NCBI RefSeq assembly: GCF_010672455.1
Contig: NZ_JAAHGO010000032.1
Location: forward strand, 31,997-73,354
Direction: 5' to 3'
Length of the DNA: 41,358 nucleotides
DNA from: Okeania sp. SIO2C9
GTDB taxonomy: Bacteria; Cyanobacteriota; Cyanobacteriia; Cyanobacteriales; Microcoleaceae
Shown: positions 29,700 to 40,623 of the stretch, piece by piece
How the letters are laid out: the number at the start of each line of letters is the position of its first letter
Position numbering within the stretch: position 1 is the first letter of the stretch
Position numbers and translations under genes: made by a program
Notes under the pieces: model-generated
What the model saw: the letters and a program-made list of their open reading frames with translations, nothing else
What the model was told of the DNA's origin: nothing
Databases searched by the model: none

Positions 29700-29742
29700 C
29701 TTCATAAAAACTTCTGACTTCTGACTTCTAACTTCTGACTTC
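29700..29742. repeat. Heptamer array (CTTCTGA), 5' flank of Avd-like gene
   Basis: ACTTCTGACTTCTGACTTCT units lie between the Avd-like gene and the trypsin-FGE gene. With 29219-29272 they form an inverted pair around the Avd-like gene. Confidence 0.85.
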
Positions 29743-31168
29743 ATTCACTCCCGCCATCACATACTACACGAAAACCAATATAGAGGTTGTGGTTGTCGCG
29801 CCAATGGATGTAGTAGCGAGACGCAGAACGGCAGATAAGAGGAATGTTGTTCCAGGAACCGCCCCGCAATACGGCATTATGTTCTTTTTCATCATTTTCC
29901 AGCCAAGCACTGCCATCAGTAAGCGCACCTTTATAGTTATCATGCCAAACATCCTGACACCATTCCCAAACATTGCCGTGCATATCGTATAAACCAAAAG
30001 CATTAGGAGGAAAATTTCCCACATCGGTTGTTTATTCTCGAAATTTACCTTTAGACGCGTTGCCATAAGTATACTTGCCATTATAGTTAACTAACTCAGA
30101 CGTTATAGTTTCTCCAAAGTAAAACGGTGTAGTTGTAGCAGCGCGACAAGCATATTCCCACTCACTCTCACTAGGTAGTTTGTAGTTTTTTCCAGTTTTC
30201 TGAGATAGCTGGTGACAAAATTCTACAGCATCGTACCATGACACACATTCTACTGGGCGGTTTCCTCCTTTAAAGTTAGAGGGATTTTTTCCCATAATAG
30301 CTTGATATTGATCTTGAGTAATAGGATATTTACTCATATAAAAAGGTTGTAGAGTAACTTGATGTTGAGGACTTTCGCTATAACCTCTTACCTCTTCATT
30401 TTCCGACGAACCCATAAGAAAAGTTCCCCCAGGAATAGCCACCATTTCTAACACCACACCATTACCCAAATCTTCAGTAAAAAATACTGCTTCATGGAAA
30501 CGACGCTCAATTTCTTCGCCTTTCTTGTTTACCGTTATGACATCAAATTTTTCTAGGTAAAAATAAGAAATAATAGGAGGCATTTGAGGCCAAATTTTCT
30601 TCAAAGCTTCTACCGAAATAGCTAACCCCTTTGCTCCATCATTCTCCATATTGGTAGCTACACCCAACACACCACCAGTTTCCAAGTCAACAACAGGTGC
30701 GCCACTATAACCTCTACGGAGGCGATCGCCTTCATCAACTAACAAATTCCAAACTGCCACCCTTTCATTATTTTGACGAGCAAAACGCTTTTTCCCAAAA
30801 GTTCCATCAACAGTTTCCAGCAAGATTTTTTTCTCTTCACCATAGAGATAATGACCTGCTGTCCGAAACTTTCGATTTTTTGCTTCAGATAAACTTATTA
30901 GCTGGAAAAGTGGCACATTCAGCTTTTCAACTCCCAACACTGCTAAATCAAAACCCTTAACATCTCCTATTCCTAAAACTTCTGCTGGAATATTATTCAC
31001 CAAAACATTTTCCTCACCACCCACATCCTCAATAACATGAGCACAGGTTAGCAAATAGGTATAATTATCCTCTTGATAAAAAGCAAATCCAGTACCAATA
31101 ACATCTGCCTTGCGAGAGTTGTCACTAGCACTGGTAATTAAAACAATAGATTCTTCTAAATTACTCAT
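29741..31168 (-). pseudogene. Trypsin-like protease fused to FGE-sulfatase (C-type-lectin fold) domain, with in-frame TAA
   Basis: From ATG 31168 the frame encodes a trypsin-like domain with triad H44 (LLTCAHVIE), D74 (GFDLAVLG) and S155 (RRGYSGAPVV), then an FGE-sulfatase domain from about 236 (EMVAIPGGTFLMGS, SESEWEYACRAATTTPFYFG). A TAA at 30032-30034 stops it at residue 378, after ASKGKFRE. The same frame continues TTDVGNFPPNAFGLYDMHGN through VWEWCQD and RGGSWNN to GFRVV, ending at 29741. The usual FGE text is REQTTDVG, so the TAA replaces a Gln codon. Read through, it would have 475 residues. The ATG overlaps the stop of the upstream Trypco1 gene. The FGE end has DGR-target features. 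Truncated, the FGE fold would be incomplete. Confidence 0.85.
29780..29851 (-). other. Candidate DGR variable region in the FGE domain
   Basis: Between GGSW and IGFRVV the codons are AAC AAC ATT CCT CTT ATC, then TGC CGT TCT GCG TCT, then CGC TAC TAC ATC CAT TGG, then CGC GAC AAC CAC AAC CTC TAT. The changeable positions almost all have the NNY form that adenine-targeted mutagenesis makes from AAC/AAT, whose products are never stops. No template repeat was found in this window, so the call rests on codon pattern and domain context. Confidence 0.5.
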
Positions 31169-33518: not shown

Positions 33519-33794
33519 TTAATAACGACGCATCTCATTCAGAAACTTATTCTGATAACGCAAAAATTCTCTCCGAGACTCCTGGAAACGACGTTTATGA
33601 TATTGATAAATAGACTCACGCAAATTTTCTAGTTCCTGAATCCGACGTCGCTGATCCTTGAGAAACTCTTGCCGATATCTGAGATATTCTGTATGCCACT
33701 CATTAAAACGACGTTGACCATCACGAACTAACATTTGACGATAATGTTCGTGATTCAGCAAATGTATCGGAACATTACTAAGATCTCTCATCAC
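33519..33794 (-). CDS. Arg-rich coiled-coil protein with 40-residue internal repeat
   Basis: This 91-residue protein has no recognised domain. It is very rich in Arg, Glu, Gln, Phe and Tyr and looks fully helical. Two segments 40 residues apart match: RRFNEWHTEYLRYRQEFLKD (28-47) and RRFQESRREFLRYQNKFLNE (68-87), each followed by RR. GAGAGG precedes the ATG. It lies downstream of the gas-vesicle genes on the same strand, 210 bp after the 676-residue protein. By context it could be a small gas-vesicle accessory or GvpC-like protein, but nothing proves this. Confidence 0.65.
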   Translation of the reverse strand: MMRDLSNVPIHLLNHEHYRQMLVRDGQRRFNEWHTEYLRYRQEFLKDQRRRIQELENLRESIYQYHKRRFQESRREFLRYQNKFLNEMRRY

Positions 33795-34003: not shown

Positions 34004-36034
34004 TCAAGACATTTTATTTATACTAGGATGTAATTTAACACTCATTCCAGCCCAAGGAACATTATGTTCTGTATAAGTTACCAATCTGGCTTTACCAGTA
34101 ACTAAATCGTACTTAACAAATTGACCATTAAATATCGCAAATAATCGATCGCCGTAAAAATCTAGACTACCAGAATTCTTAATTCCACTAGCACCAGCAA
34201 CAGCAATAGGGGTACCATTATGATTAAGTCGCATCAGATATCTTTGCCGATTATTATTATTACCAAAATCTGAATATGCTCTGCCTTTACTATCAAAAGC
34301 TAAACCACCACAATAAAAAGGATAATAAGATTTATAAGACCTAATAATTATTCCTGCACCTGTATTTACATTTACTTTTAATAATGTTTGAGGACTCATT
34401 GCATAAAGAGTTTTTCTATGTTTAGAAAAAGCCAAACTAGCTACTTTACTATTACCTAATTTACCAATAATTGTAGTTTTGGCAGTAGTGGGATTTATTC
34501 TGACTAAATCTGTTGTTTTTTGGTCGCGCCACCGAATACCATAGAGTATATTTCCACAAAAAGCAATATCAACTATGTGCATACCCATAGAACCAATTAA
34601 GACTGTTTTTCCTGATTCTATATCTAGGGTATAGAGATTACTTGCTTTGCCTTTAGGGTACAAATCTTGAATATAGATTAATCCTTTAGTCGTTTTATAA
34701 ACTACGTCTGATGTGTCTGGAATTTCTGAGGGGGAAACTTCGTCTGGGTCTTCTTGTTCTATATCGGTGGGCTGTTCCGATGACTCTGGGAACAATGGGA
34801 GACCTGATGGGGATACTTCGTCTGGCAGTTGGAATTGTTCTACTATATTGGTTGGTAATTCCGAGGAGTCTGATCCTGACGGTGGTGGACCTGATTCTGG
34901 TATTTTTTTTTTTGACTTTCCCAGGCGTTTTGTCTCCTGATTTTTGGTCTTTTTATTTTGGCTTCCACCAAGTAAATTACCTGTAAGTTCCCCTATTCCG
35001 CCTGTTAATTTTTCTGTAAGTTCCCCGACTTCGCCTGTTAAGTTTTCTGTAAGTTCCCCGATTTCGCCTGTTAAGTTTTCTCTAAGTTCTCCTATTTCGC
35101 CTGTTAAGTTTTCTCTAAGTTCCTCTATTTCACCTGTTAATTTTTCTGTAAGTTCCCCTATTTCATCTGGTAATTTTCCTACTATTTCTCCTCCACTATT
35201 ACCAAGAGATTTCAAACTTTGCAATGGATTAGTAAGTAGAGATAAAGGATTGAAAAAGAGAAGTTTTAAAAAATTGCCAATTGTGGTAATAAATGCTATT
35301 AAATTTTTAACAATATATTTGATAAATGACCAAATTTTACCAACTACATTAACTATAAATAAATAGGTTTTAACTGGAATAGCAATGAATATTTGAAATA
35401 GTATTTTCACCCATGAAAATATTTTATTAACAGTGTCAATTATAAATTCATATATTTTGATAATTAGATTTATACAAGCTTTAAAAACAGCTTTTACCAA
35501 TGACCAAATTTTACCAACTACATCAACTATAAATAAATAGGTTTTAACTGGAATAGCAATGAATATTTGAAATAGTATTTTTATTCCTAAAAATATTTTG
35601 CTAATTTTATCAATTATAAATTCATAGATTTTGACGATCAAATTCACACAAGCTTTAAAAACAGCTTTCAGCCATGACCAAATTTTGCCGATCGCCTGAA
35701 GTAAAAATAGATATATTTTGACGGGAATAGCAATGAATAGCTGAAATAATGTTTTTATCCCTGAAAATATGTTGCTAATAATGGTAAAAATGAATATAAA
35801 AAAACTTTTGATATAATTATAAATTCCTATCAAAATACCAAAACCAGGTAAAGGTAGTTTTCCCGTGACATTCTCCACCGTTTCTGTAAGTTGATTTGGT
35901 ACATCTTGAAGAGAAGATAAATTTTCTGTGGGCAAATTTTCAGTAAGATTTTCTACTACATCAGTAGCTTTCTTGAAAGGATTGGGAATAGAAGGTAAAT
36001 CCCCTTTCTCTTGCCGATTTTTGAAATTTTTCAT
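34004..36034 (-). CDS. Gas-vesicle-linked protein with hydrophobic 58-residue repeats, 11-residue repeats and a propeller-like C-terminus
   Basis: I do not recognise this 676-residue protein. Residues 1-60 are polar. About 93-250 contain 58-residue repeats: IAIPVK at 101, 159 and 217, and GKIW at 116, 174 and 232. Each is hydrophobic with regularly spaced Lys, suggesting long amphipathic or membrane helices. About 292-357 contain six 11-residue repeats (GELTEKLTGEI and variants), a hendecad coiled-coil or surface-binding pattern. A Lys/Pro/Ser/Glu-rich linker follows (358-440). About 446-676 have repeated strand motifs such as LYTLDIESGKTVLIG, LVRINPTTAKTTIIG, LLKVNVNTGAGIII and FVKYDLVTGKARLV, like a beta-propeller. 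AAAGGAG before the ATG is strong. It follows gvpA, GvpC-like and gvpA genes on the same strand, so a gas-vesicle tether or surface protein is a reasonable inference. Confidence 0.75.
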   Translation of the reverse strand: MKNFKNRQEKGDLPSIPNPFKKATDVVENLTENLPTENLSSLQDVPNQLTETVENVTGKLPLPGFGILIGIYNYIKSFFIFIFTIISNIFSGIKTLFQLFIAIPVKIYLFLLQAIGKIWSWLKAVFKACVNLIVKIYEFIIDKISKIFLGIKILFQIFIAIPVKTYLFIVDVVGKIWSLVKAVFKACINLIIKIYEFIIDTVNKIFSWVKILFQIFIAIPVKTYLFIVNVVGKIWSFIKYIVKNLIAFITTIGNFLKLLFFNPLSLLTNPLQSLKSLGNSGGEIVGKLPDEIGELTEKLTGEIEELRENLTGEIGELRENLTGEIGELTENLTGEVGELTEKLTGGIGELTGNLLGGSQNKKTKNQETKRLGKSKKKIPESGPPPSGSDSSELPTNIVEQFQLPDEVSPSGLPLFPESSEQPTDIEQEDPDEVSPSEIPDTSDVVYKTTKGLIYIQDLYPKGKASNLYTLDIESGKTVLIGSMGMHIVDIAFCGNILYGIRWRDQKTTDLVRINPTTAKTTIIGKLGNSKVASLAFSKHRKTLYAMSPQTLLKVNVNTGAGIIIRSYKSYYPFYCGGLAFDSKGRAYSDFGNNNNRQRYLMRLNHNGTPIAVAGASGIKNSGSLDFYGDRLFAIFNGQFVKYDLVTGKARLVTYTEHNVPWAGMSVKLHPSINKMS

Positions 36035-36070
36035 CTCAAACTCCTTTAATTAATTAAAAGGTTTAAAAAT

Positions 36071-36253: not shown

Positions 36254-36526
36254 TTATACTAAAGTAGGAGAAGCCATAGGTTGTCCTATTTCAGTTTCAT
36301 CAGTAGTTCCTACTGCAGGTGCTGCTGCTAGAGCTGTTAAACCAACTGCTTCTGCATATTTTAAGTAAGTTTCTACTGAAGCAATAACTATCCTAGCTTC
36401 AACAGCAAGTAATTCAATACCTACTAAAGAAACCCTTACCCAGGCATCGATGACAACACCTTTGTCAAGAATGCGGTCTACAACTTCAGCTAGACTGGAA
36501 GATGAGTTAACTTTTTCTACTGCCAT
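36254..36526 (-). CDS. gvpA: Gas vesicle structural protein GvpA, second copy, with C-terminal extension
   Basis: The first 70 or so of 90 residues are near-canonical Gvp[54 protein letters not shown]. GvpA builds the gas-vesicle wall ribs. Typical cyanobacterial GvpA ends near residue 71; here an extra tail of about 20 residues ([19 protein letters not shown]) follows the normal end. AAGGAATAA lies before the ATG. It follows the GvpC-like gene by 40 bp. Confidence 0.95.
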
Positions 36527-36566: not shown

Positions 36567-37046
36567 TTAAGGACCCCAAACATAATCATGCAAATTAGTT
36601 CGGAAGCGTTGTAATTTCTCAGCCAACTCCTGAGCCATTAATGCCCGATCATAACTGAATTGTTCCTGAAGTTGCAACACTTCAAGCTTAAGTTCTAATA
36701 CTTCTTGTTTGCGTTGAGCAATCTCTTCTAACCGCTCCTGACGTGCTTGTTGTTCATACAAATGCAGTGCTTCAACATAATCTTCTAACATTGTCCGCAC
36801 TTGTTTATAACGTTCGGCATTTTCCAACTGCCTTTGTTGTTTTTCTGCTGCACCTGTTTCCTGAAGCTTTGTCACAAACTCCTCTAACATAGTGTGAAGC
36901 ATCTGAGCTTCTTCATCAAGCTCTTGTCTAATAGCACGAAGTTCAGCTTGAGTTTGTTGTCTGTGTTGGGCAACCTCTAGTTTGCGTTCGGCAATTTCCG
37001 TTAATCTTTGCGATCGCTCTTTTGCCCATATATCTTTAAGAGCCAT
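36567..37046 (-). CDS. gvpC: GvpC-like gas vesicle protein
   Basis: This 159-residue helical protein is rich in Glu, Gln and Arg. TMLEEFVTKL (52-61) and TMLEDYVEAL (85-94) are exactly 33 residues apart, and TNLHDYV (150-156) comes 65 later, matching the 33-residue period of GvpC, which binds and stiffens the vesicle outside. The end LQRFRTNLHDYVWGP resembles the GvpC terminus (LLKFRQDLFVSIFG type). It sits between two gvpA genes, 21 bp after the first. The protein is shorter than usual GvpC, and its first part (RLTEIAERKLEV repeated at 105) is unusual. Confidence 0.82.
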   Translation of the reverse strand: MALKDIWAKERSQRLTEIAERKLEVAQHRQQTQAELRAIRQELDEEAQMLHTMLEEFVTKLQETGAAEKQQRQLENAERYKQVRTMLEDYVEALHLYEQQARQERLEEIAQRKQEVLELKLEVLQLQEQFSYDRALMAQELAEKLQRFRTNLHDYVWGP

Positions 37047-37067: not shown

Positions 37068-37361
37068 TTAATAAACTCCAGCAGCAGAAGGTTCTGTTAC
37101 TCCTATTGCGTCCATAGGTTCATCATCTAAATCACTAGAAATAACTTCTCCCGGTGCTGCTGCTAGAGCTGTCAAACCAACTGCTTCGGCATATTTTAAG
37201 TAAGTTTCTACTGAAGCAATGACTACCCTAGCTTCAATTGCCAGTAATTCAATACCGACTAAGGAAACACGAACCCAAGCATCTATGACAACACCTTTAT
37301 CAAGAATTCGGTCTACAACTTCAGCGAGACTGGAAGATGAGTTGATTTTTTCTACTGCCAT
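37068..37361 (-). CDS. gvpA: Gas vesicle structural protein GvpA, first copy, with C-terminal extension
   Basis: The canonical GvpA body (to about residue 70) carries [20 protein letters not shown] and [14 protein letters not shown]. The 97-residue length exceeds the usual 71; the tail ([20 protein letters not shown] and on) is acidic and differs from that of the second copy. AAGGAAT precedes the ATG, and the AT-rich 37362-37440 region likely holds the operon promoter. Main wall protein of the gas vesicle. Confidence 0.95.
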
Positions 37362-37779: not shown

Positions 37780-38457
37780 CTATACAAAATGATAAGGGGG
37801 GAGTGGCTCACTCAAACTAATTTCCCAATAGGAACACTCAGCTTGCCAAGTTGGTAATTGTTGAGTAGTTAGAACTTCTACTTCACTATTGGCCAACAAA
37901 TGGACTTGTTTAGTCTCCCCTTCTGTACTATTTTTCCAGACTGCTTGTGGATATTCTTTGAGAATTAACTGACGTATATTTTCCAGTTGTTGACGTTGTT
38001 CAGTTTGAAAAGCTTGCTGTTGTTGAAAGCGTTGTTTTTTAGCTAATAAATAAGCTTTGCCACGAGCATTACTACTTTCTAGGTTAGAAGGGGGAGAAAC
38101 AGGAGAAAATTTGATGGTATATTCTGCCTTTTCTGCCAATTGAGTTAAAGTAGTCAGATATTGTTGCTGATTATTTTGTAAGTGATTAACAATATTTTCA
38201 ACAGTAGCAAAAGCATTTCCAAATCTGAGTGGTATTAGGGAAGTTTGCTGAAATATTTCTCGAACTACAAGATCGTGGGTTAATACTGCTTGGAGTAATT
38301 TTTCGTCTGTTTCCTGTATTGCCTCAATAGATATATCTGCTTCAGTTACAGCAGCCAGATTTTGATATGTAATTAGTTCGACTTCCTTTTCCATGCCTTT
38401 TGGCAATGCTAGGGATGATTTGGGTAAATTAACGAAAGCGTAGACATAAAATGACAT
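37780..38457 (-). CDS. Gas vesicle protein GvpF/GvpL family
   Basis: This 225-residue protein fits the GvpL/GvpF family, accessory proteins that nucleate gas vesicle assembly and interact with GvpA. It starts SFYVYAFVNLPKS and has the family's THDLVVREIFQQTSLIPLRFGNAFAT stretch (split here into ligand-like segments THDLVVREIF and LIPLRFGNAF). A helical Gln-rich region (about 135-180) follows, ending in a strand segment and LPPYHFV. It lies upstream of the gvpA genes on the same strand, separated by a repeat-filled gap, so it may have its own promoter. GvpF and GvpL are not told apart here. Confidence 0.9.
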   Translation of the reverse strand: MSFYVYAFVNLPKSSLALPKGMEKEVELITYQNLAAVTEADISIEAIQETDEKLLQAVLTHDLVVREIFQQTSLIPLRFGNAFATVENIVNHLQNNQQQYLTTLTQLAEKAEYTIKFSPVSPPSNLESSNARGKAYLLAKKQRFQQQQAFQTEQRQQLENIRQLILKEYPQAVWKNSTEGETKQVHLLANSEVEVLTTQQLPTWQAECSYWEISLSEPLPPYHFV

Positions 38458-38688: not shown

Positions 38689-40623
38689 TTATTTAAAATT
38701 ATGAGACTGTTTTTGACTCATTAGAGCATTGTAAGCAGTAGTAAAGTGAGCATTTGTAATCCTGATTTTCTTTGGAGACTTAATTCCTTTAGCGCTATAA
38801 CTACGAATAGCAGCTAAAGCAGCTTGATTAGTCAACAATGCCAAATCTGCTCCATTCCAACCTTCTGTGCGACTTGCCCAATCTTTCAAATTTACTGCTT
38901 GCAGTGGGCGACCTTGATTATGAACTTTCAAAATTGCTAAACGACCTGCTATATCTGGCAAGTCTACCTTTATTTGCAAATCCAATCTTCCCGCTCGCAG
39001 TAATGCTGGGTCTAGAGCATCAGGACGGTTAGTTGCTCCCACCAATAATATCTGAGTACAGTCGCGCAAACCATCTAATTCTGTTAATAGTTGACCAACT
39101 AGGCGATCGCTTACTCCAGAATCTCCGATAAATTTACCACGAGCAGGAGCTAGAGTATCAATCTCATCAATAAATATTACACAAGGTGCAACCTGTCTTG
39201 CTTTAGAAAAAAGTTCTCGTACTGCTTCTTCTGCTGCTCCCACCCACTTACTCAGCAACTCCGGTCCGTTGACAGCAATAAAATTAGCTTGTGCTTGGGA
39301 AGCAACTGCTTTTGCCAGCAAAGTTTTTCCGGTTCCTGGTTCCCCCCATAATAAAATTCCTTTGGGAGCTTTTGCCTTAGTTTGTTCATATAATTCTGGA
39401 TATAGTAATGCACCTTCAACTGACTCTTGTAATTTTTGTTTGACTGCATCCAGACCGCCAATATTTTGCCAACTGACATTAGGCACTTCTACCGCTACAG
39501 ACCGTAATACAGAAGGTTTAATTTCCTTAATTGCTGCCAGAAAATCAGTTTGCAATAAACTCATATCCTCTGGAGTCGGACTATCTAAAGATGGAACTTG
39601 ACGACGGAGAGCTAAATAAGCTGCTTTTTGACATAAAGCTTTTAAGTCAGCACCTACTAACCCAACTGCCATATCGGCAATTTCTCCCAAGTCAACAGAA
39701 CTATCTAATGGCATAGAATTTGTCATTATCTGCAAAATTTCTAATCTTCCATTGCGGTCTGGAATACTGAAATTAATTTCTCGGTCAAATCTTCCCGGAC
39801 GACGCAGAGCAGGATCGATATGGTCTGGGCGGTTTGTTGCTGCTAAAATTAAGACACCCTGATGTTCGACAAATCCATCCATTAGTCCCAATAATTGGGC
39901 GACTAATCGTTTTTCGACTTCTCCTTCGACTTTGCTACGGTCTGGAGCAATACTATCAATCTCATCTATAAATATCAGACAAGGAGCAGATTGTTTTGCT
40001 TTGGTAAAAATTTTGCGTAACCTTGCTTCTGCTTCTCCATAATATTTGCTGATTACTTCTGGTCCGTTGATCGCAATATAATTGAGTCTCAGTTCTTCTG
40101 CTATTGCTTTAGCTGTGAGAGTTTTACCCGTACCTGGCGGTCCAACTAATAAGACTCCACGAGCAGGTTCTAATCCTAATTGTGATAATAAATCTGGGCG
40201 TTTGAGTGGGAGTTCTATTACTTCTCTTAATTCTTGAATTATTTCGGACATACCTCCAATGTCTTTGAGGGTAGGTCTTGATTTAGTTTCTGGGGGTGGG
40301 GGAGTAAAGTTAGTTTGTTGTTGAGGTCTATTTTCTGTGGAACCGCCAGTTTCTTTTGAGGTGGGTGCTGGTTTTGTATCTGGGGGTGGGGGAGTAAAGT
40401 TAGTTGGTTGTGGAGGTCTGGTTTGTCTAACAGGTTGTCTGATTTGGGTTTGATAATGGTCTCTTCTTCTTGGTATGTTAGTGTTAGTTCTTCTGGGAGT
40501 ATTGTTAATAGTTCGAGACTGTACCTGATAGGAAGTTTTTGCTTCCCCTGTTTCGGATTTTTTTTCTAGAACTTTTGCCAATTCTATTATTTGTCTTAAG
40601 TCTAATCTTAGAAAATGATTCAT
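38689..40623 (-). CDS. Double AAA+ ATPase, CDC48/VCP-like, linked to gas-vesicle genes
   Basis: This 644-residue protein has a short N-terminal helix (LRLDLRQIIELAKVLEKK), a Pro-rich low-complexity stretch (about 65-115, TNFTPPPP twice) and two AAA modules. Module 1 has Walker A GPPGTGKT, Walker B IFIDEIDSIAP and arginine fingers RRPGRFDRE. Module 2 has GEPGTGKT, IFIDEIDTLAP and LRAGRLDLQ. CDC48-type enzymes unfold or remodel protein complexes. It precedes gvpF/L on the same strand, so a role in gas-vesicle assembly or breakdown is an inference. It differs from the MoxR-type GvpN. Its promoter and first 42 codons are duplicated upstream. Confidence 0.88.
   Translation of the reverse strand: MNHFLRLDLRQIIELAKVLEKKSETGEAKTSYQVQSRTINNTPRRTNTNIPRRRDHYQTQIRQPVRQTRPPQPTNFTPPPPDTKPAPTSKETGGSTENRPQQQTNFTPPPPETKSRPTLKDIGGMSEIIQELREVIELPLKRPDLLSQLGLEPARGVLLVGPPGTGKTLTAKAIAEELRLNYIAINGPEVISKYYGEAEARLRKIFTKAKQSAPCLIFIDEIDSIAPDRSKVEGEVEKRLVAQLLGLMDGFVEHQGVLILAATNRPDHIDPALRRPGRFDREINFSIPDRNGRLEILQIMTNSMPLDSSVDLGEIADMAVGLVGADLKALCQKAAYLALRRQVPSLDSPTPEDMSLLQTDFLAAIKEIKPSVLRSVAVEVPNVSWQNIGGLDAVKQKLQESVEGALLYPELYEQTKAKAPKGILLWGEPGTGKTLLAKAVASQAQANFIAVNGPELLSKWVGAAEEAVRELFSKARQVAPCVIFIDEIDTLAPARGKFIGDSGVSDRLVGQLLTELDGLRDCTQILLVGATNRPDALDPALLRAGRLDLQIKVDLPDIAGRLAILKVHNQGRPLQAVNLKDWASRTEGWNGADLALLTNQAALAAIRSYSAKGIKSPKKIRITNAHFTTAYNALMSQKQSHNFK

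Follow-up and report, generated by a model that had tools for sequence, protein, structure and literature searches.

P676, a protein of helical repeats and a modelled propeller encoded beside gvp genes in Okeania, as a possible gas-vesicle tether

Introduction

PMC7204071 and PMC10903477 define GvpC by its 33-residue helical repeats, and the second source has it binding through Arg, Phe and Leu residues on one face. PMC10903477 also describes GvpU and GvpT as gathering vesicles via an elongated GvpA C-terminus; it confines these two proteins to Bacillota and gives them as absent from cyanobacteria, where tight vesicle packing is seen nonetheless.

The stretch of DNA analysed here, called the window, comprises 41,358 nucleotides from Okeania sp. 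SIO2C9 and encodes a 676-residue protein, P676, next to gas-vesicle genes. We propose, with a probability of about 0.4, that P676 is a cytoplasmic accessory tether of gas vesicles in a single lineage of cyanobacteria, Okeania with its close kin, and would grip the C-terminal tails of GvpA. By analogy, it may share with GvpU/GvpT of Bacillus megaterium the job of gathering or placing vesicles by an elongated GvpA C-terminus; the proteins are apparently unrelated, and are set apart by the review's description and by the helices-stalk-propeller layout of P676. P676 resembles GvpC in being encoded next to gvpC and in having helical repeats, some of them 11 residues long, but differs from it in its periods (29/58 and 11 residues, with no 33-residue repeat) and in possessing a hydrophobic region and a propeller domain, and the cluster has a gvpC of its own. 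A literature search at the level of abstracts found no description of P676 or of the long Okeania GvpA tails.

Results

P676 follows a gvpA-gvpC-gvpA row

The first-pass annotation had placed a 676-residue protein within a gas-vesicle cluster, and the open reading frame was recovered exactly, on the minus strand, with gvpA (twice) and gvpF/L among its neighbours. The features of the region are as follows.

34004..36034, minus strand: P676 coding sequence, 676 aa, intact from ATG to stop
36041..36047, minus strand: AAAGGAG, ribosome-binding-site-like by sequence, 6 nt upstream of the P676 ATG
36254..36526, minus strand: gvpA copy 2 (gvpA2), with C-terminal tail, by family model
36567..37046, minus strand: gvpC, an assignment by position and sequence character (every Pfam and NCBIfam model stays below its cut-off)
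37068..37361, minus strand: gvpA copy 1, with an acidic C-terminal tail of 33 residues, by family model
37780..38457, minus strand: gvpF/L (Pfam GvpL_GvpF, 6.3e-32)
38689-40623: CDC48-like AAA+ ATPase, upstream of gvpF and of the gvpA-gvpC-gvpA2-P676 row
33519..33794, minus strand: basic protein of 91 aa, in which a 35-residue motif occurs once clearly and once in worn form

P676 is thus the fourth gene, after gvpA, gvpC and gvpA2, and is followed by the 91-aa gene; gvpF and the AAA+ ATPase lie upstream. The intergenic gaps measure 219 bp between gvpA2 and P676 and 212 bp between P676 and the 91-aa gene, and a search of both gaps for terminator-like sites on the P676 strand came back empty. 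Promoter-like matches occur in both gaps, at chance level for the region (26 against 21.3 expected). One of them (36152-36124, 9/12) stands ahead of P676 and makes co-transcription less than certain, even if such matches are no commoner than chance. Read by eye, the N-terminus of P676 has no evident signal-like segment.

P676 combines two repeat regions, a linker and a predicted propeller

Four parts can be told apart in the protein, all encoded on the minus strand.

35249..35857, minus strand: residues 60-262, hydrophobic lysine-bearing 29-residue units, net charge +17
34970..35167, minus strand: residues 290-355, six acidic 11-residue units, net charge -14
34697..34969, minus strand: residues 356-446, linker, lysine-rich then Pro/Ser/acid-rich
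34007..34696, minus strand: residues 447-676, basic beta-propeller modelled with 20 strands

Within residues 66-275, 84 of 152 positions are identical at a lag of 58 (z 19.9, 1000 shuffles), and the 58-residue units begin at residues 89, 147 and 205. A signal at lag 29 over the same residues (z 9.2) indicates that every 58-mer consists of two related 29-mers, of two flavours that alternate; clear 29-residue units start at residues 89, 118, 147, 176 and 205, and divergent ones at 60 and 234. IAIPVK and GKIW, which had been reported at constant spacing in hydrophobic 58-residue units, are indeed placed identically in all three. The hydrophobic moment of residues 66-262 peaks at 99.25 degrees and exceeds that of all 1000 shuffles, a result to which the repeat itself contributes, and 19-residue hydropathy within residues 60-262 reaches 1.87 at the points sampled. 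In the full-length AlphaFold model (five close rows; pLDDT 38.4), helices are placed at residues 65-158 and 164-261 with low confidence and the linker has no structure. None of the Foldseek matches of this model exceeded a TM of 0.24, and they were set aside; a PDB sequence search with the hydrophobic part gave no matches.

The six GELTEKLTGEI-type units of the first-pass annotation are present as well, with 48 of 70 identities at lag 11 in residues 280-360 (z 14.2). Aliphatic residues occupy positions 3, 6 and 10 in all six units, and this spacing recurs in Okeania sp. SIO1I7 (6/6) and in genome G369 (10/10) despite changes at other residues; in G358 it is looser. A 3-4-4 spacing, as found in three of the four 11-mer tracts tested, characterises hendecad coiled coils. 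Judged by this spacing, the 11-mer helix of P676 probably forms such a coiled coil, which would make P676 probably oligomeric. An identity as apolipoprotein A1/A4/E (PF01442) was rejected at 31.8 bits against a curated cut-off of 90.

The propeller alone (AlphaFold, five close rows) gave a best model with pLDDT 79.9, pTM 0.81 and 20 strands, the other four models ranging from pLDDT 68.9 to 35.1. Such a strand number would suit five four-stranded blades. Foldseek related the model to propellers of the kelch, TolB and nidogen kinds, with E values as low as 7.7e-9 and a TM of ~0.6, so that structure prediction and structural search agree with the propeller-like end described earlier. The DUF6923 model (PF21959) scores 21.4 bits with P676, below the curated cut-off of 27, and 36.3 bits with the G358 homologue, above it; the propeller probably belongs with the DUF6923-type propellers. 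With a profile of the propeller, a PDB sequence search returned only weak diisopropyl-fluorophosphatase matches.

Cyanobacterial DUF6923/DUF4394-like proteins carry a propeller homologous to that of P676 (33-39% identity), whereas the other domains read in them differ. Their open frames span from ~170 to 1860 aa, one of them (L056) with a weak VWA match, and no gvp genes were seen around these distant relatives in the six loci whose surroundings were listed. Net charge separates the two groups: the six P676-type propellers range from +9 to +15 and 15 distant relatives from -10 to +6, five of the latter being above zero. At loci L050, L056 and L059, the motif RREEEI.[IL]IRKVRKVEE.D.SPACP[IV]N occurs either in a small neighbouring protein or as a fusion to the distant propeller proteins.

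Distribution and selection

In an order sample of 388 genomes, P676 found matches at E <= 0.001 in 79 and clear homologues (at least 55% identity) in only eight. The gene is intact or nearly so in six of them (G000, G250, G323, G297, G308 and G358), that of G308 running to the contig end; G305 holds a fragment, and in G369 the frame is broken and the gene ends at the contig end. A further 25 genomes match at E <= 1e-20 over the propeller only, with 33-39% identity, and the remaining matches are taken as weak propeller or helical-repeat matches. Weak matches to residues 264-360, such as an MCE-like protein of the own genome (L006, named by eye), were discarded as helical-repeat look-alikes and not homology. 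Of the 386 genomes of a phylum sample, six match at 1e-6, and a match along the whole protein is confined to the own genome. No relatives of P676 were found in viral contigs, and PADLOC gave no match.

Relatives of P676 include those of Okeania sp. SIO2B3, SIO1I7, SIO2F4 and SIO3B5. By eye, the hydrophobic repeat varies by whole units: the own genome, SIO1I7 and SIO2B3 have three 58-mers each, SIO2F4 and G358 have two, and SIO3B5 has none; in the alignment, the SIO2B3 homologue carries the 11-mers. The SIO3B5 homologue (L048 305-1900) is without both 29-mers and 11-mers and repeats a linker unit about eight times, at a spacing of ~81 nt. That of G358 (L043 11316-13772) bears an extra ~180 C-terminal residues in which no Pfam family passes its cut-off.

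Comparisons of the window's P676 with its homologues gave dN/dS values of 0.21-0.45 for the propeller (five comparisons) and 0.19-0.44 for the 29-mer region (four comparisons, SIO3B5 being without this region), as against 0.71-1.29 for the linker and 0.54-1.76 for the 11-mers, both of which look relaxed. Between SIO1I7 and SIO2B3, the ratio is 0.18 for the propeller and 0.87 for the 29-mer region, the latter from few changes (dS 0.05). These values indicate that selection maintains the propeller and, over the longer branches, the 29-mer region as well. Against SIO2F4 (L047), residues 263-355 have a dS of 0-0.02 and the linker one of 0.07, amid an N-terminal part and propeller at 0.2-0.3; so near-identical an 11-mer block between diverged flanks is likely the product of local recombination.

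Linkage to gas-vesicle genes

P676 stands directly behind gvpA-gvpC-gvpA in five of the eight genomes with a clear homologue. In SIO3B5 (G297), transposase-like fragments, named by eye, lie between the gvp row and P676. Erosion has reached the gvp cluster of G305, where 392 bp of the P676 propeller region remain near a gvpN remnant; in G369, the contig ends within P676. Of the 28.3-kb G358 contig that carries P676, 19.9 kb were read and showed no gvp genes; gvpF, gvpC and gvpA are found elsewhere in that genome. Conservation beside gvp genes, which the first-pass annotation had put forward as a check, is therefore seen in five of eight genomes; homologues always lying away from gvp, which it had named as contrary evidence, were not found, G358 being the one case. 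The synteny is young, and the unrelated GNAT and Trypco1 genes on the far side are conserved as well as P676, so that synteny alone is weak evidence for a role of P676.

Long acidic GvpA tails accompany P676

GvpA tails were read, for the copies in the stretches fetched, in 102 of the 109 gvpA-positive genomes of the order sample (all except G305, G329, G319, G167, G180, G211 and G378). In all six genomes with an intact P676 the tail is acidic and 25-33 residues long, with a charge of -3 to -7 in the three tails computed, as against 7-11 residues in 95 of the 96 genomes without one. Fisher's test for a long tail against an intact P676 gives 5e-9, which is no proper probability because the genomes are related. 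The sole long tail without P676 among the 102 genomes, in G033 (L077), has 90 residues and is Pro/Gly/Val-rich and non-acidic.

The pairing holds in G358 though P676 is unlinked to gvp there, and both traits are missing from G153 and G349, which bear the same genus label as G308. In the shorter tail, a motif of the form DE.E[IM]GQP[MV].SP is common to G358 and four of the five Okeania-type genomes (the variant in SIO2F4 reads VDEIGQPMTSP), and it is kept despite a gvpA dS of ~0.9 between the own genome and G358. The gvpF tree places G308 as sister to G153, G329, G349 and G362 (98/97), which implies about one joint gain and one joint loss; in the AAA+ ATPase tree (8 rows), G308 groups with Okeania (100/99), and a single change then suffices. 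The pairing of tail and P676 thus reflects only one or two evolutionary events.

Discussion

Pairing with the GvpA tail, adjacency to gvp genes and joint erosion in G305 support a tie between P676 and gas vesicles. In the arrangement that we propose, the basic C-terminal propeller would dock on the long acidic GvpA tails, which among the genomes read are confined to Okeania and its close kin; the acidic 11-mer helix and the linker would form a stalk; and the cationic 29-residue hydrophobic helices would either enter a membrane, lying in its plane, or pack against one another. Helices anchored or packed in this way would hold vesicles to the membrane or gather them into clusters. We infer tail binding, membrane or self-association, a cytoplasmic location and a tethering function for P676; the co-occurrence of a basic propeller with an acidic tail suggests binding, and the propeller could instead bind nucleic acid or lipid. 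Where the first-pass annotation let the protein lie along the vesicle surface or tether it, tethering is now the best-supported role and a GvpC-like position along the surface is unsupported. The orientation given there, with the propeller facing the cytoplasm or a membrane, is probably to be turned around: its basic charge makes the propeller the likelier vesicle-facing end, and the hydrophobic part the likely anchor.

Counted against the tether are the relatedness of the species, the coverage of GvpA by the copies in the fetched stretches, the young synteny, the promoter-like match ahead of P676, the unlinked gene of G358, the SIO3B5 homologue without repeats, the ratio of 0.87 in the 29-mer region between SIO1I7 and SIO2B3, the relaxed look of linker and 11-mers, the G033 tail and the poor full-length model. 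SIO3B5, with propeller and long tails and without anchor or stalk, fits a core of propeller and tail; either the anchor can be done without or this copy is being lost.

P676 may have nothing to do with gas vesicles, being a membrane-associated propeller protein that stands beside gvp by inheritance from an Okeania ancestor, with the tail pairing a coincidence of one lineage. We regard this as doubtful and yet a real contender: P676 lies elsewhere in G358, unrelated neighbour genes are equally conserved, only one or two events underlie the pairing, and no gvp genes were seen at the six listed loci of distant propeller relatives. Speaking against it, G358 has both traits unlinked while G153 and G349 miss both, P676 eroded together with the cluster in G305, and the charge of the propeller contrasts with that of its relatives. 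The tail pairing and charge data would equally suit a membrane platform for assembly or nucleation that holds GvpA by its tail, not a tether of finished vesicles, and the place of P676 in the gene row agrees with such a part; this is improbable, since 103 of the 109 gvpA genomes of the order sample do without an intact P676, which is hence not a general assembly factor.

That the repeats lie along the vesicle surface as in GvpC is more improbable still. Helical repeats encoded next to gvpC, and a Pfam Apolipoprotein match on the 11-mers (E 1.5e-7, at 31.8 bits far below the cut-off of 90), are in its favour. The analogy had been drawn from the 33 = 3 x 11 repeats of GvpC, but P676 has no 33-residue period of its own, the lag of 33 being the third multiple of 11; it is hydrophobic and not hydrophilic; BLASTP against the window's own GvpC found no similarity (E 4.2); the repeats are absent from SIO3B5; and PMC10903477 has GvpC attach by Arg, Phe and Leu residues that share a face. 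The analogy is thus unsupported.

Returning to the tether, a more specific version would make P676 the first cyanobacterial one, its propeller reading a GQP..SP-type linear motif in the acidic GvpA tails, with a coiled-coil stalk and a repetitive in-plane membrane anchor, independent of the Bacillus GvpU/GvpT and tuned in length by repeat number; this version is rather unlikely. P676 and the matching GvpA tail make a testable pair for vesicle placement and packing in cyanobacteria. If the tether reading is true, vesicle clustering or tethering would have a second origin, and the pair would offer a peptide-tag handle to position gas vesicles in engineered cells.

Other genes of the region

The 91-aa neighbour of P676 carries the 35-residue motif YRQMLVRDGQRRF.EWH.EFLRYQ, of which G349, G362, G329 and G153 have more than one copy, next to gvpF. 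The motif family occurs in 45 of the 388 genomes, and gvpA in 41 of these 45 as against 68 of the other 343; one of the 45, a 22% match in a 1741-aa frame of G285, looks false. By eye, gvp-like genes surround or adjoin the match in 13 of the 15 loci fetched (15 of the 45 genomes). In the g4 genomes, which we take to be Planktothrix-like, the protein is short and away from gvpA where both share one contig. The family is also seen at L072, L076, L074, L070 and L102-L115.

No curated family scores above its cut-off with the window's 91-aa protein. The tandem copy of G349 marginally passes Nse4_C (27.9 against 26) and XylR_N (23.3 against 23) with no passing stretch, and we read both as chance; that of G362 scores 29.7 bits with NCBIfam FRAT_87_prot against a cut-off of 50, and a literature search on FRAT-87 found nothing. 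Homology of the family to GvpC was rejected (hhalign probability 0.05%), as was a shared Arg/Phe/Leu face in the motif, where only Phe (three residues) clusters clearly. The 91-aa protein thus belongs to a family that is uncurated, marked by the 35-residue motif and common in the vicinity of gvp genes in cyanobacteria. As a new helical protein of the vesicle wall, it is a stronger candidate than P676.

A CDC48-like double AAA+ ATPase (relatives named by eye and aligned) recurs near cyanobacterial gvp genes, at 38689-40623 in the window, L070 10957-12876, L074 2362-4281, L113 and L114. At 29741-31168 on the minus strand of the window, a gene of trypsin-like plus FGE-sulfatase-like character seems to have been split, giving two frames that overlap; its relatives at L045 and L046 have 476-478 aa in one frame.
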